A stretch of 41,173 bases of DNA from a virus: IMG/VR virus record IMGVR_UViG_3300045996_002223, positions 1 through 41,173 of that record; one strand, written 5' to 3'. This document shows positions 18,048 through 38,819 of this stretch, piece by piece (within the stretch, counting starts at the first letter, position 1; every line of letters begins with the position of its first letter). Below the pieces are notes generated by a model. The model was not told the origin of the DNA. It saw nothing but the letters and a program-made list of their open reading frames with translations, and made no database searches. A program made the translations under genes and the position numbers.

Positions 18048-18539
18048 TTAGCCGGCCTTCTTGATCCGGGCTTGCCCGGAGGCGTCCGCCTTCACGAAGG
18101 CGACGTAAGCGTCCAGTGCGCCGAACTCGGCCTGCAGGTCCGCGTTCGCCGCCCATTCCGCCTTGCAGCGCTCGTCGACCGGCAGCTTGGCCAGGCGCTC
18201 CTTCTCCGCGGCAGCAGCTGCCTCGGCGCTCGGCTGCACCGCGGGCGCAGCCGCTTGGCGGACGGGGGGCGGCGCGTCGCCGCGCGCCGCGGCGCCTTGC
18301 TTCTCGCGAATCTCGCGCTCGGCGGCATTCACCGCCAGGGCCGCGTCGCCGCCCGTGGTCTTGCCGTCGAACTTCAGCGAAGCGATCAGCGTCTCGTGGC
18401 CGGGGATCAGCGCAGCTTCGACGCCCTGGATGCGCGCGCGTTCCTGCGCGGCGCCGCGGGTGACGCCGAGGGCTTCGCCTTCGGCCAGGATGGCTTGCAA
18501 CAGCTCGGGGTGCTGGGCTGCCAGTTCGGCACGATTCAT
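18048..18539 (-). CDS. Nested scaffold protein (Nu3-like), 163 aa
   Basis: An in-frame internal ATG (residue 313 of the protease) has AAGGAA eight bases upstream. The product is helical and charged (NRAELAAQHPELLQAIL, a central Ala/Pro-rich stretch, then EKERLAKLPVDERCKAEW), as expected for a scaffold that shapes the prohead and is then removed by the protease. The nested arrangement is established for lambda C/Nu3; here it is inferred from the ribosome binding site and composition. Confidence 0.65.
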   Translation of the reverse strand: MNRAELAAQHPELLQAILAEGEALGVTRGAAQERARIQGVEAALIPGHETLIASLKFDGKTTGGDAALAVNAAEREIREKQGAAARGDAPPPVRQAAAPAVQPSAEAAAAAEKERLAKLPVDERCKAEWAANADLQAEFGALDAYVAFVKADASGQARIKKAG

Positions 18540-19475
18540 GGTCTGGGTTCCTTGATGAAGTTGGGAGGGAGGCTGCTTCTGGGGAGCGACCGCCGGCGGG
18601 GGCGGCGCCGATGCCATCGCCACGACCGCTTTCCGTCGTTGGGCGAAGGCCTCGGGTTTGGTCGCAAGCTTTTCCACCATGGCGTCCACGGTGGAGAATC
18701 CATCCACGAGCCCCACGTCGATGGCTTGTTGGCCGGTGAACATGCGGCCGTCCGCCATGTGCTCCAGCACGATCTCGGAGGTGGTGCCGCGGAACTCCGC
18801 GATGGCATCCACGAAGACGCTGTACATGTGGTCGAGGTAGCCCTCGAAGTACGCCATGTATTCCGGGCTGGGCGCCTGCCCGTTGATGCCGCTGCGCTTG
18901 TACTTACCGCGCGTGAACTCGATGACGCCGGGCTCGGCCTGGCTCAGACCCATGCGGGCGTACACGCCGATGCTCCCAGCCTGCGCAGTGACACCGGTCA
19001 GGTAGACGCCGTTCGCAGCGGACCCGCCCCACATCGCCGCGCTGGCGATCTGCGCGTCGCTGATCGTGATAACTGGCTTCACCGCGGCCACCGCACGAAC
19101 CGCGGCCGCCCATTCCGGAATGCCGAACACGCTGCCACCAGGCGAGTCGATCACCTGGATGGCGGACTTGACGCGGGAATCTGCCGCGATGCTTTGCAGC
19201 TGCTGCACCAGCAGTGCCGCAGAGACGCCGCCACTAATCTGCGTGAACAGGTTGGCCTTCGGGGCAATGACGCCTTCGATGTTCAGCACTGCGACACCGC
19301 CCTCACGGACGGTGTAGGTCTGCTGCTCGTTGTTCAGAGGCCGCCCGAGCCGCGCTTCCACCGCCGCCACATCCGTCTTCTCGCCCTTCAAGTGCGACTC
19401 GTAGATGGCATGGATCTCACGCAGGCTCTCGGGCAGGATGGCCCAAGGCTTGTTGAGAAGTTCGATGAGTTTCAT
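18048..19475 (-). CDS. Head maturation protease with scaffold domain (S49, gpC-like)
   Basis: This 475-residue protein is a ClpP-fold S49 (SppA-like) peptidase that processes the prohead. Visible features are IDSPGGSV at 109-116, the nucleophile S168 in AGSIGV, and the candidate general-base Lys in GKYKRSG near 191-193. Residues 1-290 are the protease; a Pro/Ala linker follows, and from M313 comes a helical scaffold part made also from its own start. The layout is that of lambda gpC/Nu3. A 73-base gap carrying a repeated element and a hairpin precedes the start. Confidence 0.85.
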   Translation of the reverse strand: MKLIELLNKPWAILPESLREIHAIYESHLKGEKTDVAAVEARLGRPLNNEQQTYTVREGGVAVLNIEGVIAPKANLFTQISGGVSAALLVQQLQSIAADSRVKSAIQVIDSPGGSVFGIPEWAAAVRAVAAVKPVITISDAQIASAAMWGGSAANGVYLTGVTAQAGSIGVYARMGLSQAEPGVIEFTRGKYKRSGINGQAPSPEYMAYFEGYLDHMYSVFVDAIAEFRGTTSEIVLEHMADGRMFTGQQAIDVGLVDGFSTVDAMVEKLATKPEAFAQRRKAVVAMASAPPPPAVAPQKQPPSQLHQGTQTMNRAELAAQHPELLQAILAEGEALGVTRGAAQERARIQGVEAALIPGHETLIASLKFDGKTTGGDAALAVNAAEREIREKQGAAARGDAPPPVRQAAAPAVQPSAEAAAAAEKERLAKLPVDERCKAEWAANADLQAEFGALDAYVAFVKADASGQARIKKAG

Positions 19476-19521
19476 GCGTGCTGCTGAGGTTCAGTGCACG
19501 CGACTGTAGAAACAGTGGCCT

Positions 19522-19545
19522 GCAAAAAATAGGGCAACTTGAGCC
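19522..19545 (-). repeat. Head-operon repeat element, copy 2
   Basis: AAAAATAGGGCAACTTGAGCC is identical to the copy at 21433-21455, apart from one extra A at its edge. It lies 46 bases before the protease ATG. On the minus strand it is followed by a perfect small hairpin (ACTGT/ACAGT, 19516-19503). Possible roles are a regulatory RNA element, a processing site or a protein-binding site. Confidence 0.75.
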
Positions 19546-19548
19546 AAG

Positions 19549-21183
19549 TCAGTCGTCCTCGTTCGGACGCCGGGGGCGGCCAGGCAGTTGCTCGTCGTCG
19601 TCCTCCGCTGGCGCGGCTGGGGGAGAGCCAGCACCCGGCTGAGGCTGCAGCGTGCCGGCCTCGCGTTGCGCGCGAATCTCCCGCGCCCGCTGCCGATTCT
19701 TCGTCTCCCAGTCGACACCGTCGTGCAGGACGCTTTCGGCCTGCAGCGTGCTGATGCCGAGGTCCACGCGCCCTTTCGCCGCGGCAACTTCCTTCTGCGG
19801 ATCGATCGATCCCGGCCCGTCGCCGGTCCAGGTCGCTTTGCACCAGGCAGCACGAACATAGTCATCGGCGAAGAAGCCGGGTGCCGCGATGCGCCCTTGC
19901 GAGACCTCGTTGTGTAGCCAGAGCTCGTAGACCGGCTGGCATAGCTGCTTGGCCAGCAGGTCGCGGCGTTCGCGATAGAAGCGCCACGCCATCAGCAGCG
20001 CCCCGCGCGCGGCGCTATAGCTGCTCTGGAAGTGCATCACCAGGACTTCGTATGGCACCTGGATGGCCATGCCGATCTGCCGCACCATCGCAATCCAGAA
20101 CGGATCGAACGCAGGATTCGGCCGGTCCATCGCTGCTGTCTGCACTTCCTCGCCCGGCAGGAGGTTGACGGCCTTGCTGTTCTCCAAGTCTCCGGACCAC
20201 TTCTGCGTGCGCTCGACGAGCGCGTTCTGCGCGTCGTCTTCGAACAGTTGCTCGAATGCGTCGGGATCCATCTTCACGAACAGGGTGAACAGACTCGAGG
20301 TCACCGCCGCGGCGAGCTCGTTGTCAGTCCACCTGGTGAGTTGCTTGAGCGGCTCCAAGATCGGTGCAAGCCACGGCACGCCCCGCACCTGGGCCGGGCG
20401 GATCTGCTTCCAGATCTGCAGCACGTTGCGGCGCCCGGTTTCAGCCCCACGCACCTCCACCCTCGTCCAGCTGTTGCCGGAGCGCAGGTCGCCGGGGTGG
20501 CGCTGCGCCACGTGGATAGCGACCGTTTTCAGGGTCTCTGGATCCAGCTCCACACCGTCCTGCATCGTGTCGGAATTGGGCCGGTGGTTCGGGTTGCACA
20601 CCCGATCGGCCTCGATCACCTGCAGGGCGAGCTCACGTCCCTTACCCGGACGGTCGACCAACGGCGTAAGAACCCACGAATCGCCGCTTTCGAACGCCGA
20701 CCGCAGGGAGAGGTCTTGCTCGCCGTAGAAGTCCTGCCGCTCGCTGAGGTCGACGTCCATGGACTCGGCCCAGGCTTCGAAGCGCTGGCGCGTGTCGCTG
20801 TTCCACTCGGCGGCGTACTCCTCGGTGACTCCCAGCACCGCGTGGTTGATCCCGGGGTTACACGAGAGCCCGGTTCCCACGATCGCGCTGACCGCGTTGC
20901 CGACGGCGCCGGTGGCCACCGGCGCGTTCCGAACAGCATCGCGGGTGCGGTCGCGCAGCATGGGAAGGTCCGCGATGATGTCCGTCTCCGGAGATCCGCC
21001 GCCCGGTTTCCAGTTCTTCAGCGAAGAGCGATCGATGCGCGCACCGGTGTATCCGCCCGCCAGCGCGAGGGCTCCGCGGGCTGCCAAGCGGCGTGCGCCA
21101 GCCTTGGGCGAGAAGTAGGTGATGACCTTGTCGAGGACGTTCTGCTGCACCAGGCGGTGCCGCACGTTCGTGTCATCGCTCAT
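19549..21183 (-). CDS. Portal protein, lambda gpB-like, 544 aa
   Basis: Forms the dodecameric ring through which DNA enters and leaves the head. Family features include NAPVATGAVGNAVSAIVG near residue 85-105, RFEAWAES, a QDLSLRSAFESGD segment and the long stem region RGVPWLAPILEPLKQL. The C-terminus is disordered and acidic (EDDDEQ). Length is typical of lambda portals (about 530). Its ATG overlaps the gpW-like stop by four bases. Confidence 0.9.
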   Translation of the reverse strand: MSDDTNVRHRLVQQNVLDKVITYFSPKAGARRLAARGALALAGGYTGARIDRSSLKNWKPGGGSPETDIIADLPMLRDRTRDAVRNAPVATGAVGNAVSAIVGTGLSCNPGINHAVLGVTEEYAAEWNSDTRQRFEAWAESMDVDLSERQDFYGEQDLSLRSAFESGDSWVLTPLVDRPGKGRELALQVIEADRVCNPNHRPNSDTMQDGVELDPETLKTVAIHVAQRHPGDLRSGNSWTRVEVRGAETGRRNVLQIWKQIRPAQVRGVPWLAPILEPLKQLTRWTDNELAAAVTSSLFTLFVKMDPDAFEQLFEDDAQNALVERTQKWSGDLENSKAVNLLPGEEVQTAAMDRPNPAFDPFWIAMVRQIGMAIQVPYEVLVMHFQSSYSAARGALLMAWRFYRERRDLLAKQLCQPVYELWLHNEVSQGRIAAPGFFADDYVRAAWCKATWTGDGPGSIDPQKEVAAAKGRVDLGISTLQAESVLHDGVDWETKNRQRAREIRAQREAGTLQPQPGAGSPPAAPAEDDDEQLPGRPRRPNEDD

Positions 21184-21404
21184 CGCGGCACCATCGTGAT
21201 GGCGCGGCTGCGGCCGCGCGTGCCGGCACTCAGGGTCTTGACGCGAGAGTCCCAGGAGGCGATGCCTTCCTGGATGTCCTTCAGGTTCGCGCGCGTCAGC
21301 TTCCGTCCGGCAATCTCATACGACTGCCCGGCGAGGACCTTTTCTTCCGCTGCGAGGTAGAGCGCGAGCTGCGCTTCCGCGTGTTCGAGGGTGATTCCGG
21401 CCAT
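21180..21404 (-). CDS. gpW / DUF6148-like head-tail joining protein, 74 aa
   Basis: A 74-residue protein between terminase and portal: an N-terminal helix (TLEHAEAQLALYLAAEEKVL), a short SYEIAGRKLTRA hairpin and a second helix, ending in a basic tail. This is the pattern of lambda gpW-like or DUF6148 proteins that plug the portal after packaging. The start at 21404 gives the family length; upstream in-frame residues would run through the repeat element and are unlikely to be translated. Confidence 0.75.
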   Translation of the reverse strand: MAGITLEHAEAQLALYLAAEEKVLAGQSYEIAGRKLTRANLKDIQEGIASWDSRVKTLSAGTRGRSRAITMVPR

Positions 21405-21432
21405 AGCGCCGGAGTCTAGGAACGGCTGAGCC

Positions 21433-21455
21433 GCAAAAATAGGGCAACTTGAGCC
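21433..21455 (-). repeat. Head-operon repeat element, copy 1
   Basis: The first copy of the 21-bp element, in the 59-base gap between the Mor-like gene and the gpW-like gene, 28 bases before the gpW-like ATG. On the minus strand it is followed by a small CGGCT/AGCCG hairpin. Most other neighbouring genes here overlap by a few bases, so the gap and element look deliberate. Confidence 0.75.
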
Positions 21456-21463
21456 GACCTGAC

Positions 21464-21763
21464 TCACTCACCCGGGCCTTTCTTCACCAGGCGCTTCAGC
21501 GTGGCCAGGCTGATGCGGTGCTTGGACAGCAACTCGCGGGTCGGCATGTTGGTGAGTGCGTCCTGATAGGCGCGAAGCCGCTGCTCAGGGGTCAAGTACT
21601 TGCCGCGCTTCAGGATCCGCACGCGCAGGCCGCCGTATTTCGACCGCACCTCCTGGTCGATCCTCGCGGCCAGCTCGCCATTGAAGCCGGGAGCCACTGC
21701 GAGGACGTGCTGCAGCACCACCTGCACGATGTCCGGCTCTTCACTTTGATCTTCCGGCTTCAC
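21464..21763 (-). CDS. Mor-like HTH protein, 99 aa
   Basis: The C-terminal half reads SKYGGLRVRILKRGKYLTPEQRLRAYQDAL, then TRELLSKHRISLATLKRLVKK, which fits the Mor/C family (a beta strand after a YGG motif, then a helix-turn-helix). In Mu, Mor activates the middle promoter. Here the gene stands between the large terminase and gpW, overlapping the terminase by a GTGA. It may regulate late genes or be a structural relic; the copy of the repeat element directly downstream is suggestive. Confidence 0.6.
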   Translation of the reverse strand: MKPEDQSEEPDIVQVVLQHVLAVAPGFNGELAARIDQEVRSKYGGLRVRILKRGKYLTPEQRLRAYQDALTNMPTRELLSKHRISLATLKRLVKKGPGE

Positions 21764-23745
21764 GCGCCTCCCTTCCGAAGGCCGGCGAGCGTGATCCTGC
21801 CGCCGCTTACCTTCGCAGCCGAGGCGGCTGCAGGCGCCGCAGCCGCGGGTTGAGGTGGCGCAGATCGCGAGACTTCACCATCGGCATGTGGATACGTATC
21901 CACCGGGGCCGTGAGAAGGTCGCCCTGGACCGGATGCAGGCGATCGCGCAGCGACTGCCAACGGGACTCCGTGTTCTTGTGCAGCTGCAGGTAGTGCGCG
22001 GCGCCGAGGTTGTACACCGTCAGGTCCAGTGGTTCGTTGGCCTCGCCCTTCTTTTGCTCCCACCAGCTGACCTTCCGCCCGCGCTTGTAGCCGTAGGTGC
22101 GGTATTCCGCGGTGATGCCCTTGAAGAAGGACTCCGGCAGGCCGTCAGGGAAGTGAATCGCGCCCGGACCAGCGGTGCGCTTCCACCTGGCCTGCAGGTA
22201 GTCCTTCGCGGTGTCCGGGCCCACCAGCCACAGCTCCGCTGCCCTCTTCTCGCTCTTTCCTCGCCAGTTGATGTCCACCTGCGTTGGCTTGCCGCTCAGG
22301 ATCGGACGATTGGGTCGGCTGTGGCCCTTCACGGGAAACACCTTCCGGCGCTTCAAAGCGGATGTGAAGTTGTAGACGTCCTGCGTGTTCGACCCGCCGG
22401 AGTCGACGAAGGCGGCTGTTATCGACAGCATCTGGCCGCTGGTGTGCCGGTACCGGCCCTTCAGCAGTTCGTCCGCCCGCTGCCAAGTTTCGACCTCCGC
22501 CGGCGAACCATGGATCACCTGGTAGTCGACGACCCAGGCCTCGAGGCCCTCACCCCACGCCATGACCATGAACTCCAGCCGGTGCGCCTGCGTATCGATC
22601 GCCGCCGTGAGCACCACGCCACCGGCCGGCACCGTACCCAGCGCATACCCGCCGGCGCGCGCCATCAACTCGTCGTACCGCGTGGTCTCCTTCGTCCGCT
22701 CCCAACACAGCGCCAGGCGCGTGTTGTAGAACGTAATCATGGCTTCTTCGCTGCCCTCTTCCAGCTTCGCCTTCGCCTTGTCGTATTGCTTCAGCAGCGC
22801 GATCCACGGCAGCCAGCCATACGGCAGGAACATCGCGGAGATGTGGAAGCTCTCGGTCTCCCCGTCGCCCGGCACGCCGTCTGACCACATGCCGCGGGCG
22901 AACATGCGCGACTTGTCGCCCTCCTCGTGCAGGCCGCCGCAAGCCTCACACGGGTACAAGGCGCGCTTGCCGTCATCGCTGCGTATCAGCCTGAAGAAGT
23001 CCAGCGCCTGGGCCTGGCCACAGTGAATGCACTCGGCCAGCGCCTCCCGTTGCGTACCGAGGCGGTACAGGTCGTCGATCGCGCTCTCGCCCTCGATCGT
23101 AGGCGAGCTGGGGTAGTAGGCCTTGCGGTCCCGCTCGTGCGACGTCTGCCGCGTCTCGGCCAGTTCCTTCGGATCCCCCTCACCGCCGACGTTTTCCTTG
23201 CTGCGGTCGACCTCGTCGTACACCACGTAGGTGACGGACAACTCGGACAGGTTCGCAGCGGCGCCGGCGGTGACGATGTAAAGCTCGCCGCCGGGGTAGG
23301 CCTTGATGTCGTTGTTGTTGGTTGCGTCACGGCTGTTCGGCTTCGCGACGCGCTGCTCCAGCACCGGTGTGGCCTTGATCACCTTGTTGATCCGACCAGC
23401 TGCGCGCTTGTGCAGCTTCCCGGTGGGCACGATCCACAGGAAGTTCTTCGGCCGCTGGTGAACAGTTTCCCCCAGGAAGTTGAGGCCAACCTGCGTCTTC
23501 AGCATCTGCGAGGCGCCCTTTACCACGACGCGCTTCACGGCGGTGGCGATCGCCGACAGGCAGAACATCGGCAAGCGCGCGTGCGGTGTGCGGCTGGTGC
23601 GGTACTTCCCCGGCTCCGAAGCCCCCGTTTCCCTCGGAACCTGGGCGAACTCATCGGCCCAAGCGTCGACCGTCAGGTTCGGGTCGGGCTCCATCCCACG
23701 AGCGACCGCGTCGAGGATTGCCTGGTAGCCGTCCCGCATGTTCAT
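21760..23745 (-). CDS. Terminase large subunit, lambda gpA-like, 661 aa
   Basis: The packaging motor and nuclease. It shows an ATPase domain with a degenerate Walker A (KGASQMLKT, 76-84) and Walker B (YVVYDEVD, 173-180), a zinc-binding pair CIHCG and CEACGG near 240-270, and nuclease acidic residues AAIDTQ and AFVDSGG. The length matches lambda gpA (641). It cuts concatemers and drives DNA into the prohead with the small subunit encoded just upstream (ATGA overlap). cos-type packaging is expected for this family. Confidence 0.92.
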   Translation of the reverse strand: MNMRDGYQAILDAVARGMEPDPNLTVDAWADEFAQVPRETGASEPGKYRTSRTPHARLPMFCLSAIATAVKRVVVKGASQMLKTQVGLNFLGETVHQRPKNFLWIVPTGKLHKRAAGRINKVIKATPVLEQRVAKPNSRDATNNNDIKAYPGGELYIVTAGAAANLSELSVTYVVYDEVDRSKENVGGEGDPKELAETRQTSHERDRKAYYPSSPTIEGESAIDDLYRLGTQREALAECIHCGQAQALDFFRLIRSDDGKRALYPCEACGGLHEEGDKSRMFARGMWSDGVPGDGETESFHISAMFLPYGWLPWIALLKQYDKAKAKLEEGSEEAMITFYNTRLALCWERTKETTRYDELMARAGGYALGTVPAGGVVLTAAIDTQAHRLEFMVMAWGEGLEAWVVDYQVIHGSPAEVETWQRADELLKGRYRHTSGQMLSITAAFVDSGGSNTQDVYNFTSALKRRKVFPVKGHSRPNRPILSGKPTQVDINWRGKSEKRAAELWLVGPDTAKDYLQARWKRTAGPGAIHFPDGLPESFFKGITAEYRTYGYKRGRKVSWWEQKKGEANEPLDLTVYNLGAAHYLQLHKNTESRWQSLRDRLHPVQGDLLTAPVDTYPHADGEVSRSAPPQPAAAAPAAASAAKVSGGRITLAGLRKGGA

Positions 23746-25261: not shown

Positions 25262-25482
25262 GTTACGCAGTTACGCGCGCGCGTAACCACCAGACCCGCG
25301 CCAGTGCTTGCGAGTTACGCGGTTACGCGGTTACAGCACTCCCCTATATGCAAAATCCACCCACACCCTTCGGACGTACGCGCACACGCGCACGCATTTG
25401 GAGAAGGCCGTAACCGCGTAACCGCGTAACTGGCCGCGCCAGTGCTTGCTTTCGGAGTTACGCGACCCTGTAACCGCGTAAC
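25262..25482. repeat. Iteron block, probable replication origin
   Basis: The motif GTTACGC occurs nine times exactly, five times forward (25262, 25270, 25314, 25322, 25457) and four times as GCGTAAC (25281, 25416, 25424, 25476), with degenerate copies at 25330, 25408 and about 25468. Adjacent copies repeat every 8 bp (GTTACGCG). Between the two clusters lies a more AT-rich stretch (CTATATGCAAAAT, about 25345-25357). No gene occupies the block, which abuts the helicase stop. Iterons next to a replication gene point to an origin. Confidence 0.75.
25296..25449 (+). repeat. 16-bp direct repeat within the iteron block
   Basis: CCGCGCCAGTGCTTGC occurs exactly at 25296-25311 and 25434-25449. Each copy is followed within a few bases by GAGTTACGCG, so the block seems partly duplicated around the AT-rich middle. 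Confidence 0.8.
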
Positions 25483-27012
25483 TCATGAGCCGGCCTTTCC
25501 ACCCTCGTCACCATCCAGCGGGGAGCGGGGTCCATACCCGACGTAGCGCTTGAGCGCCTCGTCGAACTCGTTCACTGTCTCCGTGGCCCAGTCGCCCTGG
25601 GCGTCGTCAGGTGGATCGGTGACCAGCAACATGCGCATGGCCTTGCGGACTATCCCCGCCTGGCCCACCTTCATGACCTTCTCGCGCACGGGTTTGGATA
25701 TGCCCGGCACCACGCCGGTCTCCGAGATCCGCATCACCATGCGGGTGAACACGTTGCGCTGCATGGGGTAGCGGTCGCCGATGCGCTGGGCGTACTTCTC
25801 ATAGGCGCGATAGGCCTGGGCGCAGCTGCAACTGCGGTACGGCAGGTCCAGCTCGCCGCTGGCCCACTCGATCCAGAAGCGCTCCGGGCTCTTCCGGTTC
25901 AGGTCGATCAGGTCTTTCTTCGCTTCCGTGACCGGGGCCGGGGTGGACTCGTCGAAGTCCTCCAGCGGGTACTGCAGCAGGTAGTGGTAGAAGGCCTCGA
26001 CGCCACCCTTCGCGGCCCAGTCCTTCAGCTTCAGGTAGAAGGCGCGCTCGCGCATGCGGGGGGTGTAGATGACCAGGTAGCGCCGGTCGCTGTTGTCCAG
26101 GGCCAGCGGCTGCAGTTCGTTGGATAAGAAACACACGTTGATGTGGTTCGCTTCCTCGCGCCTGGGCAAGTTCTTGGGGTTGATCTGCACCGTGGGCGAT
26201 GTGATCAGCGCCTTCAGCCGGTTCTTGTTGTGCACCAGCTCCTGCCGGCTGGAGACCTCGTCCCCGATGATGAACAGCTTGCGCGATCGCCAGTCGTTGA
26301 ACTTGTCCTCGAGCTCGTCCTGGCCGACCAGCGCGCCATATTCCCCGTAGATCTCCACCAGGCGGTCGAACAGGAAGTTCTTACCGGCCCCCTCGTCGCC
26401 GTGCATGATCACGGCCGTGCGCATCTTGGCGCCGACGTGCTGCAGCGGGAAAGCCATCCACTTGAGCAGCCAGTGCATGACCTCGCCGCACTCGTCGGAG
26501 ATCGAGCTGACGCGGCTGGTGAGGAAGTTCAGCAGCTCCAGCATCGGCTGGACGTCACCCTCCTTCGGCTCCATCTTGATCCCGCCGAACAGGTTGACGC
26601 ACTGCTCGCCGCAGGTCTGGGTGGGATCGAACACCACGTCCGTGGGCATCACCGTGCGGCGCCGCTCGTGGCCCTTCCAGATCTTCACGAAGTCACTGCC
26701 GTGGGCGTGGGCCATGTTGCTGATCTTCATGATCAGCCGGTTGTCGCCATCCCACACGGTGTCGGTGCCGTAGATCAGCGCGAACTTCTCCAGCAGGTAG
26801 TTGACCTGCCCCCAGTCGATGGTCTTCTCGGGCTTCTTCGGCTTGGCCCCTTTCCCGCTGGACTGCGCGCTTGCGCCATCCTTGGGAGGGGGGGAGGACG
26901 ATGCGGCCGCAGCTGCCTTGCTCGCCTTGCGCTTGCCGGCAGCGATGTCCACGACCTTGCCGGCCTCGGGCTCGGAGGCTTCGGGCGGCGTGACCTGGTC
27001 GTTATCGGCCAA
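25483..27012 (-). CDS. Replicative helicase, D5/SF3-like (DUF5906), 509 aa
   Basis: A phage/plasmid-type replication helicase. Residues 1-65 are low complexity (Ala/Ser/Lys/Pro). The ATPase core has Walker A GDEGAGKN at 205-212, Walker B LFIIGDEV at about 246-253, and a sensor/arginine-finger area with FLSNELQPL and RRYLVIYTP. The C-terminal region looks helical. It would unwind the origin together with the Toprim primase, whose gene overlaps its start by 11 bases. It ends directly at the iteron block. Confidence 0.85.
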   Translation of the reverse strand: MADNDQVTPPEASEPEAGKVVDIAAGKRKASKAAAAASSSPPPKDGASAQSSGKGAKPKKPEKTIDWGQVNYLLEKFALIYGTDTVWDGDNRLIMKISNMAHAHGSDFVKIWKGHERRRTVMPTDVVFDPTQTCGEQCVNLFGGIKMEPKEGDVQPMLELLNFLTSRVSSISDECGEVMHWLLKWMAFPLQHVGAKMRTAVIMHGDEGAGKNFLFDRLVEIYGEYGALVGQDELEDKFNDWRSRKLFIIGDEVSSRQELVHNKNRLKALITSPTVQINPKNLPRREEANHINVCFLSNELQPLALDNSDRRYLVIYTPRMRERAFYLKLKDWAAKGGVEAFYHYLLQYPLEDFDESTPAPVTEAKKDLIDLNRKSPERFWIEWASGELDLPYRSCSCAQAYRAYEKYAQRIGDRYPMQRNVFTRMVMRISETGVVPGISKPVREKVMKVGQAGIVRKAMRMLLVTDPPDDAQGDWATETVNEFDEALKRYVGYGPRSPLDGDEGGKAGS

Positions 27013-33146: not shown

Positions 33147-35204
33147 ATGACCACCAGCCAATTGATCGAAGTCGACCCCTACCTCGTCGCCTTCAGCCTG
33201 AACAACCCGCGCAAACGCCGCGGCCTCGACATCGACAGCCTAAACGCGCTGGCCAGCAGCATCAAGGCGCAAGGCCTGGCGCAACCGATCCTGGTGCGCC
33301 CGCTGCCCGGAGATCGCGCGGAGGAGACCTTCGCAAGCCGCGAGGAGGGCCGACCCCTGGCCACCTACGAACTGGTCTGCGGCGAACGTCGCCTGCGCGC
33401 CAGCCGCCTGGCCGAGCTGGACACCATCCCGATGCTGGTGCGGGATCTGGACGACCAGGCCGCGCTGGAGCTGCAGCTGGTGGAGAACATCGAGCGCGAG
33501 GACCTGGACCCCATGGAGGAGGCCGAGGGCTTCGAGCTCATGAAGGTCAGGCTGGGGTACAGCGTGGAGCAGATCGCCGAGCGCATCGGCCGCGGCAAGG
33601 GTAAGGACTACGTCTACAAGACGATGAAGCTGCTGGCGCTGACGCCGGAGAGCCGCGAAGCCATGTACGAAGGCCACCTGGGCCGCTCCACCGGCTTGCT
33701 GGTGGCGCGCTACCCGGCGGCGCAGCAGGCCGACGTGGTGGCCTTCATCAAGAGCCAGGCCATCAACGGCGAGCCGGCGCCCTTCCGCGAGGTGTCGCCT
33801 CGGGTGTTCACCCGCTTCAACCTGGACCTGAAGAAGGCGGTGTGGATCCTCGACGACGCCGACCTGGTGGCCACCGCCGGCGCCTGCAGTTCCTGCCCCA
33901 AGCGCAGCGGCGCGCATGCTGACCTGTTCGGCGACGACGCCAACAGCCCGGACAGCTGCACCGACCCGGATTGCTTCGAATCGAAGCGCGCCGCCCACGT
34001 GGCGCGCGTGAAGGCGCAGGCGCAGAAGGACGGGATCAAGGTGATCGACGGCGACGAGGCCAAGGCCGCGTTCTTCAGCCCGCACAGCTCGTACATGAAT
34101 GGCTACACCAGCCTGGACGCCATCGCGTACACGGTCAAAGGCGAGGACGAGAAGGAGCGTGCCGTCACCTACGGCGACGCGCTGCGCAGCATGGGGAAGA
34201 AGGCACCTAAGCCGCGACTGCTGATCAACCCGTACACCGGCGCGGCCGTCAAGGTGATCACGGATGAACTGGCGGACAAGCTGGTCCCCGATGACGACGG
34301 CGACCAGCGCAGTGGGAAAGGAGCACGCGAGCCGGAGGTGGACGAGCGTCCCGACGACATCAAGGCCCTGGACGACTACCAGGTGCGGCGCGCCACCCTG
34401 ATCCGCATGTTTGACGCAGTGCGAAACCGCGACCGCACGGACGCTGAGGTGCTGCTCATCGCGAAAACTCTCATCGCGTCGTGCGACGACGGCTGCCCGA
34501 CAGTGCTGAGCACCTACCTGAACTGGGACGCCGACCTCGAGGGCGTGGCCTACGAGGACCTGCAAGGCGTGATCATCGCCAAGCTAGACGCGCTGCCGGC
34601 GGCTGATGTAGCCGCCGTTGCCGCCATGGCGGCAATCGAAATCGCCACCTACATCATCGGCAACGGAAACGACACGCACCTGCAGCTGGCCAAGGCCTAT
34701 GGCGTCGACATCGTGGCGGTGCGCGACAAGGTAGCGGAGGACCTGGAGCGGCAGGAACAGGACGACAGCGGCGAAGCGGATGAGAGCGCCACCGACAGCG
34801 TCGACCTGCCAGCCGAAGCGTCAACTGCCGAAACGGCTTCGGAGCTGCAGCCCGTCGTCGGCGCGCGCGTGCGCATGAAGGAAGACCTGAACGGACGTCG
34901 TCACCGCCGCAAGATCTCCGGCCTCGAAGGCGTGCTGCTGTCCAACCCCCAGGGCGACGACTGGATGTTCAAGGCCGATGGCGGCAAGGACAAGGCCCGC
35001 GTCGAGCGGTCCGAGTTCGTGGTGCTGGCGCTTCCCGACGCGGCCGGCGACAACGAAGCGGGCTCCGCGGCTGACGGCGCAATCGAGACGTCCAGCTGGC
35101 CGCTGCCGCCGGCAGCCGACACGCCCAAGGGTCCGACCATCGACCCCGTGGCCGCCTGGCCGTTCCCGCGCAAGCCGAAGGCCTCGCCGAGGAGCGCGGC
35201 CTGA
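33147..35204 (+). CDS. ParB-like nuclease/binding protein, 685 aa
   Basis: The N-terminal ParB/Srx domain is clear: NNPRKRRGLDIDSL, then GQ-type strand-helix LAQPILVRPL, then LVCGERRLRASRL with the CTP/DNA-contact GERR motif, then NIEREDLDPMEEAEGF and a helix-turn-helix (YSVEQIAERIGRGKGKDY). A cysteine cluster (CSSCPKRSG, CTDPDCF) forms a likely zinc ribbon near residue 250. The C-terminal 350 residues are less conserved, helical and acidic. No ParA gene is seen, so this is more likely a phage ParB-like regulator or nuclease than a partition protein. Confidence 0.8.
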   Translation: MTTSQLIEVDPYLVAFSLNNPRKRRGLDIDSLNALASSIKAQGLAQPILVRPLPGDRAEETFASREEGRPLATYELVCGERRLRASRLAELDTIPMLVRDLDDQAALELQLVENIEREDLDPMEEAEGFELMKVRLGYSVEQIAERIGRGKGKDYVYKTMKLLALTPESREAMYEGHLGRSTGLLVARYPAAQQADVVAFIKSQAINGEPAPFREVSPRVFTRFNLDLKKAVWILDDADLVATAGACSSCPKRSGAHADLFGDDANSPDSCTDPDCFESKRAAHVARVKAQAQKDGIKVIDGDEAKAAFFSPHSSYMNGYTSLDAIAYTVKGEDEKERAVTYGDALRSMGKKAPKPRLLINPYTGAAVKVITDELADKLVPDDDGDQRSGKGAREPEVDERPDDIKALDDYQVRRATLIRMFDAVRNRDRTDAEVLLIAKTLIASCDDGCPTVLSTYLNWDADLEGVAYEDLQGVIIAKLDALPAADVAAVAAMAAIEIATYIIGNGNDTHLQLAKAYGVDIVAVRDKVAEDLERQEQDDSGEADESATDSVDLPAEASTAETASELQPVVGARVRMKEDLNGRRHRRKISGLEGVLLSNPQGDDWMFKADGGKDKARVERSEFVVLALPDAAGDNEAGSAADGAIETSSWPLPPAADTPKGPTIDPVAAWPFPRKPKASPRSAA

Positions 35205-37506: not shown

Positions 37507-37752
37507 TTGCCCGACATTACCCTCACCTCCAGCGAGATCGAGCGCATCACCGGCGGCTACAAGCAGCCGGGGAAGCAGCTCGCCGAGCTGCACCGCCTGG
37601 GCTTTTATCGGGCTAGGCGGTCCAAGGTGACGGGTGGGGTAATCCTCGAGCGTGCCCACTATGATGCGGTGGCTGCAGGCCTGCCGGCGTCGCCGGCGAC
37701 CTCGAAGGCGGACCGCCCCAAAGTCCGCGTTCCAACCCTGAGAGCCGTCTGA
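37507..37752 (+). CDS. DUF4224-like protein next to integrase (possible excisionase), 81 aa
   Basis: The start DITLTSSEIERITG-x-KQPGKQLAELHRLGF is the pattern of DUF4224 proteins that lie just upstream of prophage integrases. Its basic, winged-helix-like character and position suggest an Xis-like role. The start is a TTG at 37507 and no ribosome binding site is evident, so the start is not firm. Its stop overlaps the integrase ATG (TGATG). Confidence 0.65.
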   Translation: MPDITLTSSEIERITGGYKQPGKQLAELHRLGFYRARRSKVTGGVILERAHYDAVAAGLPASPATSKADRPKVRVPTLRAV

Positions 37753-38819
37753 TGCCCCGATCGCCCGAATTGCCGCCGCGCGTCTTTGCCAAGGGCCGCT
37801 GGTACTACCTGGTGAGCGCCGAGGGGAAGAAGCGCGTCTGGACGAAGCTCACACTGCAGCGCGACGGCGTGCCGGCCCTGTACCGGAAGCTGGCCGACCT
37901 GGCCGCCCGCGACATCGCCCCCGACCGCATGCCGGCAATGATCACCGACTGGCTGGACGAGGTCGGCTCCAAGCATGCGAAGAAGACGCAGGCCAACGAC
38001 AAATGGGTGATGAACGCTCTCAGCGCCGGCTTCGCCGAGTTCCGCGCCAGCCAGCTCACACCGCCGGACTGCACCACGTTCCTGAAGCCGTACAGGGCCA
38101 AGCCGCGCACGCACAACGAAATGCGTGCCGGCCTGCGGGAGCTCATGCGCTTCGCCGAGGAGCGTGGATACAGGCCAGCCGGCAGCAACCCGGTCGACAG
38201 CATCAAGACCCTGCCGACGCCGGCGCGCGATCGCTACCCCACGGACAGCGAGCTGCGCCGGATCAAGGTGGCAGCCTTCTATGGCGCCGACGGCAAGCGC
38301 ACCCGCCAGGGCGCCACCATCGCCGCGCTGATCGACCTGGCCTACCTGACCGGCCAGCGCATCGGAGATCTCCTGGACCTGCGGTGGACGAAGAAGGCCG
38401 CCCTGAACGAGAAGGGCCTGGTCGAGGCCGCCTACATCGCCGACGAAGGCATCTACTTCAAGCCGGGCAAGACGGCCACCAGCACCGGCGCCAAGGTGTT
38501 GATCGAGTGGACGCCGCGGTTGCGGGACACGGTGGCAAGGATCGAGAAGATCGGACGCCGGAACCTGCGCTGGGTGATCACCAGCCAGGAGGCGCAGCGG
38601 TACGACTACGAGGCGTTCAAGTCGGCCTGGGCGCGCGCGATCGCGCGATCGGGGGTTAAGGGCCTGCACTTCCATGACCTGCGCGCCAAGGCGGTCACGG
38701 ACAAGGAAGAGAGCCACGGCATGCAGCAGGCCCGCCGGATGGCCACCCACAGCACCGAGGGGCAGACGGCCAGCTACGTGCGGCACCGGAAAGCGCAGAA
38801 GACCAGCGCAACAAAATAG
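37752..38819 (+). CDS. int: Phage tyrosine integrase, 355 aa
   Basis: Catalyses site-specific recombination between attP and attB. The C-terminal catalytic domain shows the conserved set: R203 in TGQRIGDLLDLRW, K240 in FKPGKTATSTGAK, H308 and R311 in HFHDLRAK, H333 in MATHST, and the nucleophile Y342 in ASYVRHR. The first 60 residues form an arm-binding region and 60-150 the core-binding helices. attP normally lies at the 3' side of such int genes, so the attR is expected just after 38819, but no core could be identified. Confidence 0.93.
   Translation: MPRSPELPPRVFAKGRWYYLVSAEGKKRVWTKLTLQRDGVPALYRKLADLAARDIAPDRMPAMITDWLDEVGSKHAKKTQANDKWVMNALSAGFAEFRASQLTPPDCTTFLKPYRAKPRTHNEMRAGLRELMRFAEERGYRPAGSNPVDSIKTLPTPARDRYPTDSELRRIKVAAFYGADGKRTRQGATIAALIDLAYLTGQRIGDLLDLRWTKKAALNEKGLVEAAYIADEGIYFKPGKTATSTGAKVLIEWTPRLRDTVARIEKIGRRNLRWVITSQEAQRYDYEAFKSAWARAIARSGVKGLHFHDLRAKAVTDKEESHGMQQARRMATHSTEGQTASYVRHRKAQKTSATK

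Follow-up and report, generated by a model that had tools for sequence, protein, structure and literature searches.

A repeated element in two gaps of the head operon

What is the function of an identical 21-bp sequence that stands in two gaps of the same head operon, and what might read it? We addressed this question in a 41,173-nt stretch of viral DNA (IMG/VR record IMGVR_UViG_3300045996_002223; hereafter, the window). Its minus strand encodes, in this order, the large terminase subunit (gpA type; terL, 21760 to 23745), a 99-amino-acid Mor-like protein whose gene overlaps the end of terL (21464 to 21763), a gpW-like head-tail adaptor (PF19645, phrog_118; 21180 to 21404), a portal protein of the lambda family (PF05136; 19549 to 21183), and an S49 head maturation protease (18048 to 19475). 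As proposed below, the adaptor and portal genes can be viewed as the first and second genes of one unit and the protease gene as the first of another.

The initial annotation had placed identical elements ahead of the gpW-like and protease genes, and our analysis agrees with it: AAAAATAGGGCAACTTGAGCC occurs at 19525 to 19545 and at 21435 to 21455 (GGCTCAAGTTGCCCTATTTTT on the coding, minus strand), that is, exactly twice where zero copies are expected. The annotated ends (21455 and 19545) were correct, whereas the starts had been set 2 to 3 bases too low. Copy 1 lies in the 59 nt that separate the stop codon of the Mor-like gene from the ATG of the gpW-like gene, and copy 2 in the 73-nt gap that runs from the stop codon of the portal gene to the ATG of the protease gene. 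No further copies were detected in the window at up to three mismatches, nor in any of 100 shuffles. A position weight matrix (PWM) built from relatives scored the two copies at 43.9 and 37.0 bits, the next best site in the window reaching −6.2. Each copy consists of a left arm, GGCTCA (21455 to 21450 and 19545 to 19540, respectively), and the core AGTTGCCCTATTTTT. The inverted right arm described below is absent from both, so the window by itself shows a half-site only.

Conservation in relatives

Relatives were gathered through a portal search (14 loci), followed by 80 viral and 23 genome loci and 30 more retrieved via the activator. They are mainly betaproteobacterial phages and prophages, the named hosts of the closer ones being Massilia, Noviherbaspirillum, Janthinobacterium, Nitrotoga, and other Burkholderiales-type bacteria. 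Prophages among the relatives include those of Massilia sp. Root418 (L122), Noviherbaspirillum sp. Root189 (L123), and Janthinobacterium psychrotolerans (L126). A search of this kind had been proposed with the initial annotation, and it was positive, most of the ∼90 relatives carrying the paired element. Specifically, a 20-mer from the first gap recurred elsewhere in the locus with at most two mismatches in 62 of 98 loci, compared with 93 of 1,176 draws of random 150-bp windows from the same loci. The second copy almost always directly precedes the protease gene, even when this gene is displaced by 4 to 7 kb through other genes. Whole phage records typically carry precisely two sites, and in occasional cases a third. 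Both copies of one genome have the same arm sequence in 53 of 55 cases, an agreement that is partly selected because second copies were found by similarity.

As a separate observation, loci L146, L147, and L148 have a third copy, which is on the late strand and distant from the head genes; in some relatives the extra copy lies ahead of small membrane or holin-like genes, as was seen for three of the extra copies. This location suggests that the third copy may serve as a lysis promoter under the same activator.

Promoter-like anatomy of the element

We aligned 87 nonredundant sites on arm and core alone, leaving the downstream sequence unused. In 82 of these 87 sites, a σ70-like −10 motif (nAnAnT) begins at an offset of 37 nt from the arm start; no other offset has it in more than 5. 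T is enriched 3 to 4 nt upstream of this motif, and positions −35 to −30 read TRTTTK. No −35 hexamer was evident; the best TTGACA match at a spacing of 16 to 18 bp was 1 to 3 of 6 positions in the sites and 1 of 6 in the window. The element thus has the layout of Mor-dependent promoters of the Mu Pm type, i.e., a −10 without a −35 and with a candidate activator site instead. Two other promoter types were considered and rejected: a classical σ70 −35 inside the core reaches no more than 3 of 6 matches at proper spacing, and a σ54 promoter fails on spacing, the two copies differing by one base between core and GC.

In the window, the −10 of promoter 1 is TAGACT (21413 to 21418, minus strand), 37 nt from the arm start and at a start-codon distance of 8 nt. 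The −10 spacing predicts the +1 at 21406, 2 nt before the AUG, and hence a leaderless transcript. Promoter 2 has TACAGT (19503 to 19508, minus strand), assigned by the −10 offset of the relatives and their PWM, with a predicted +1 at 19496 and a leader of ∼21 nt in which no clear Shine-Dalgarno sequence was found. On this numbering, copy 1 is predicted to be an activator site spanning about −49 to −29.

The element is an inverted repeat in most relatives (e.g., GTCTCAATTTGCCCTATTTGAGAC). Perfect inverted arms were found in 49 of the 87 sites, whereas 0.7% would be expected from a search of equal latitude; the dyad has 6-bp arms, a span of 24 to 28 bp, and a center at about −36 to −38. The window and about a third of the relatives' sites have lost the right arm while keeping left arm and core. 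The variable arm-to-arm span is unusual for a rigid dimer.

Identity of the Mor-like protein

The initial annotation had recognized a Mor-like regulator immediately before the first copy, and the family-level comparisons uphold this assignment. The window protein alone had no Pfam match, nor did it match any protein in the phage collection searched. However, 37 of 75 relatives matched Pfam Mor (PF08765) at an E value below 0.01 (best, 6.2e-7); the relative L012 scored 24.6 bits against a curated Pfam cutoff of 24.9. The 75-member profile aligned with Mu Mor in hhalign (E value, 1.9e-7; probability, 94; residues 47 to 116) over both the GG-x-V-x-IP segment and the C-terminal helix-turn-helix (HTH), which is why we call the window protein, putatively, Mor-like. 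Among the members inspected, Mor was the only Pfam family in the top matches that extended beyond the HTH, a motif that also resembles the resolvase HTH (HTH_7). The structure model of the activator reached a pLDDT of 91. Fold searches gave matches below significance, with Mu Mor and C ranking second and fourth in the PDB (E values above 0.3) and a Mor family protein at the top of the viral search (E value, 0.06).

Covariation of the arms with the recognition helix

The arm varies among relatives. Across 78 genomes, its type tracks, in a near one-to-one manner, the recognition helix of the Mor-like protein whose gene immediately precedes the element, with the arm registration set by hand for about 17 of these genomes. 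SRA..YR helices are paired with GTCTCA (39/39), SRR..YR with GTGCCA (8/8), D/H-R-A/S with GTCGC (8/8), S-K/N-T..WR (SKT type) with GTTTCA (3/3), SRR helices that carry N, Q, or Y at position 8 are paired with GTGCAA (4/4), and T-R/P-R with GTGACA (2/2). The octamer of the window, ISLATLKR, was located at activator residues 84 to 91 (21491 to 21514, minus strand) by the alignment, the code table, and the model, in which the helix spans residues 86 to 95; this odd helix is paired with an odd arm, GGCTCA. A basic residue at position 7 occurs in just one further helix, ISARSLRR of L086, which is paired with the arm GGGCCA.

Individual positions covary as well. Arginine at helix position 4 coincides with G at arm base 3 in 16 of 16 cases, and on a quickly built portal tree both traits change 14 times, together, giving 8 of 8 supported independent pairs (P = 0.008). 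Likewise, D or H at position 2 accompanies G at base 4 in 8 of 8 cases (6 of 6 pairs; P = 0.03). Exceptions to the code are L066 and L154 (SRS helices with GTCCCA) and L071 (IGRAALYR with GTCTCG). In L076 and L094, the activator lacks a recognizable HTH turn and the element ahead of the gpW-like gene is reduced to a core of the ATCCCCCCTTATTT type plus the −10, with no arms, which hints that the core may be read by something other than the HTH. A by-eye comparison of the code with Mu Pm revealed no clear match.

The rules of the code were fixed beforehand and more divergent loci were then fetched. Arms were to be called automatically, as the best inverted repeat within 160 bp, but in these loci this gave too much noise; a scan for 14 arm palindromes was used instead, which makes the test weaker than planned. 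Among nonredundant divergent loci, the predicted arm was present in 15 and another arm, each off by one base, in 3; none of the 14 palindromes was found in 26 divergent loci. Minority predictions were borne out in L200 (GTCCCA), L244 (GTCGCA), L186 (GTGCCA), and L207 (GTTTCA), whereas the rest of the matches test the code less because most are of the majority type GTCTCA.

Proposed mechanism and alternatives

We consider it highly probable, judging from the sequence comparisons, that the two elements belong to late promoters switched on by the Mor-like activator, which would read them. Of the possibilities raised by the initial annotation, promoter and binding site are thereby supported through conservation, the fixed −10 distance, and helix/arm covariation; RNA processing is not. 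The Mor-like protein, encoded at the end of the terminase genes, would bind each copy, in which the arm occupies about −49 to −44 and the conserved core −43 to −30; most relatives have a further, inverted arm at about −30 to −22. The protein would substitute for the missing −35 and bring host RNA polymerase to the TAnAnT −10, so that promoter 1 would drive the gpW-like and portal genes and promoter 2 the protease gene and those behind it. The computed observations comprise the repeat and its conservation, the constant distance to the −10, the absence of a −35, and the code linking helix and arm; from these we infer actual binding, activation rather than repression, and the start sites.

The same site could in principle be an operator at which the Mor-like protein covers the −35 region and silences the promoters, e.g., until late or in the lysogen. 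Repressors also bind where this site lies, over the −35 region and spacer, and the regulator gene is directly upstream; yet there is no −35 to make the promoter active unaided, and the Mor/C homologues are activators (PMC4390567, PMC4461284), making repression improbable. We regard as more improbable still that the palindrome acts in the mRNA as a hairpin serving as processing site, stabilizer, or attenuator. Complementary and covarying arms, a variable loop size, and the intergenic location would all suit such a structure, but the second arm is gone from the window and from about a third of the relatives' sites while left arm and core stay, the arm type follows a DNA-binding helix and is common to both copies of a genome (53/55), and a −10 follows at a fixed distance. 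The loss of the right arm in the window and elsewhere also led us to reject a Rho-independent terminator.

Identical direct repeats on both sides of a gene cassette, together with the resolvase-like HTH (HTH_7), would befit a site for recombination or packaging, by which the gpW-portal module is exchanged or the DNA processed. This is the explanation to which we give the least credence, a nearly negligible one, since the copies vary between phages but agree within one and keep a fixed −10, some phages have a third copy ahead of holin-like genes, and the protein has no catalytic recombinase domain.

Possible translational masking by read-through RNA

Besides predicted activator-dependent transcription, the relatives likely have a second, translational layer, of which we are less certain. 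The spacings from −10 to start codon fall into a short class of 6 to 9 nt and a long one of 18 nt or more, without intermediates, a pattern that leaderless transcripts on the one hand and genuine leaders on the other would produce. Among 68 nonredundant leader copies, the stretch running from the −10 to about +3 shows complementarity to the leader, the mean longest stem being 4.51 bp versus 3.53 when leaders were swapped between phages (maximum, 3.88 in 1,000 rounds). Stems of at least 6 bp occur in 20 of the 68 leaders, compared with 3.9 expected; masking is thus a tendency. The complementarity is clear for the gpW-like copies and not significant for the protease copies alone, and pairing of leaderless copies to early codons is weak (P = 0.0135). 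For the gpW-like copies, read-through RNA needs 10.1 kcal/mol to open the start region, compared with 7.6 kcal/mol when the upstream sequence is shuffled (P = 5e-5). Because the 5′ strand of the stem lies mostly upstream of the predicted +1, masking would be limited to read-through RNA.

The short hairpins that the initial annotation had reported after each copy are indeed present in the window and probably belong to this layer rather than to the element itself. After copy 1, the stem UCCGGC/GCCGGA (21396 to 21413, minus strand) encloses the gpW-like AUG, and its 5′ arm lies upstream of the +1, so it is predicted only in read-through RNA. After copy 2, GCGUGC/GCACGC (19476 to 19501, minus strand; fold z score, −2.85) closes just before the protease AUG, with its 5′ arm at −5 to +1; according to the prediction, however, the larger read-through RNA of this copy is no more closed than its shuffled counterparts. 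RNA initiated at these promoters would begin at or a few bases before the AUG, or would carry a leader that leaves the ribosome site open, whereas read-through RNA would fold the −10-to-+1 sequence onto the start region and hide the ribosome site. Translation of the head genes would thus be tied to the late promoter.

Relation to known systems

The closest known system is Mu Mor/C, which shares the logic and differs in dyad size, position, and phage background. Common features with Mu Pm/Mor are a small GG-x-V-x-IP protein with a C-terminal HTH, a site that replaces the −35 beside a recognizable −10 (PMC4287176) and that, here in most relatives but not in the window, has dyad symmetry, an activator gene just upstream of its own promoter, and a GC-rich dyad center. 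The Mu Pm dyad, however, is 16 bp with 5-bp arms centered at −43.5 (PMC4390567, PMC4287176; PDB 1RR7, 9L0Y), a geometry not found here, where 6-bp arms span 24 to 28 bp around −36 to −38. The resemblance to Mu Mor in sequence is distant (17% over 70 columns), and here one activator would serve a pair of identical head promoters, the phage being of the integrase type and having a terminase and a portal of the lambda type. In the Mor-to-C cascade of Mu, C acts on four late promoters (lys, I, P, and mom; PMC4461284; PDB 9L0X); a single phage activator, several late promoters, and a weak −35 are shared, but here two (rarely three) promoters lie within or near the head operon. The T4 genes e, soc, 49, and I-TevI offer a precedent for masking, in that a late start located within or beyond the 5′ strand of a stem leaves out the strand that hides the ribosome site in the longer early RNA (PMC3014915). 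T4 employs its own late sigma factor, in contrast to the σ70-like −10 and predicted activator described here, and many copies here would be leaderless instead. We found no described Mor-type system in such phages in the literature searched.

Taken jointly, the data may describe a lineage of integrase phages with two to three identical activator-dependent head promoters, a drifting helix code (position 4 to base 3, 2 to base 4, 8 to base 5, and 7 to base 2), and the same promoters gating translation, with the start codon exposed only in RNA begun there, either leaderless or with the masking strand upstream of the +1. This full combination we rate at slightly below an even chance. The analysis as a whole assigns a previously unexplained repeat to a named regulatory system, one that belongs to temperate phages of a large and hardly studied group, and it predicts, base by base, the sequence that each activator would read. 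Numerous natural changes in helix and arm alike back this prediction, a rare situation among helix-turn-helix families. A coupling of transcription and translation that resembles T4 gene e, but is spread across the head operons of many phages, is indicated as well. The reader protein and its mode of reading are now amenable to direct testing with one small protein and short DNA probes.

The phage of the window is probably temperate and of the integrase type rather than transposing and Mu-like, because the record encodes an integrase (37752 to 38819, plus strand) and a large ParB-like protein (33147 to 35204, plus strand) on the early strand; a Mor-type activator is therefore found in a phage that does not look transposing. 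Its DNA similarity to catalogued phages is confined to ∼200 bp of the portal gene. Finally, iteron-like repeats (GTTACGCGGTTAC and GTAACCGCGTAAC) in direct and inverted copies were observed at 25310 to 25484, between a primase-like gene and a neck gene, a region that is perhaps a replication origin or a regulatory region.
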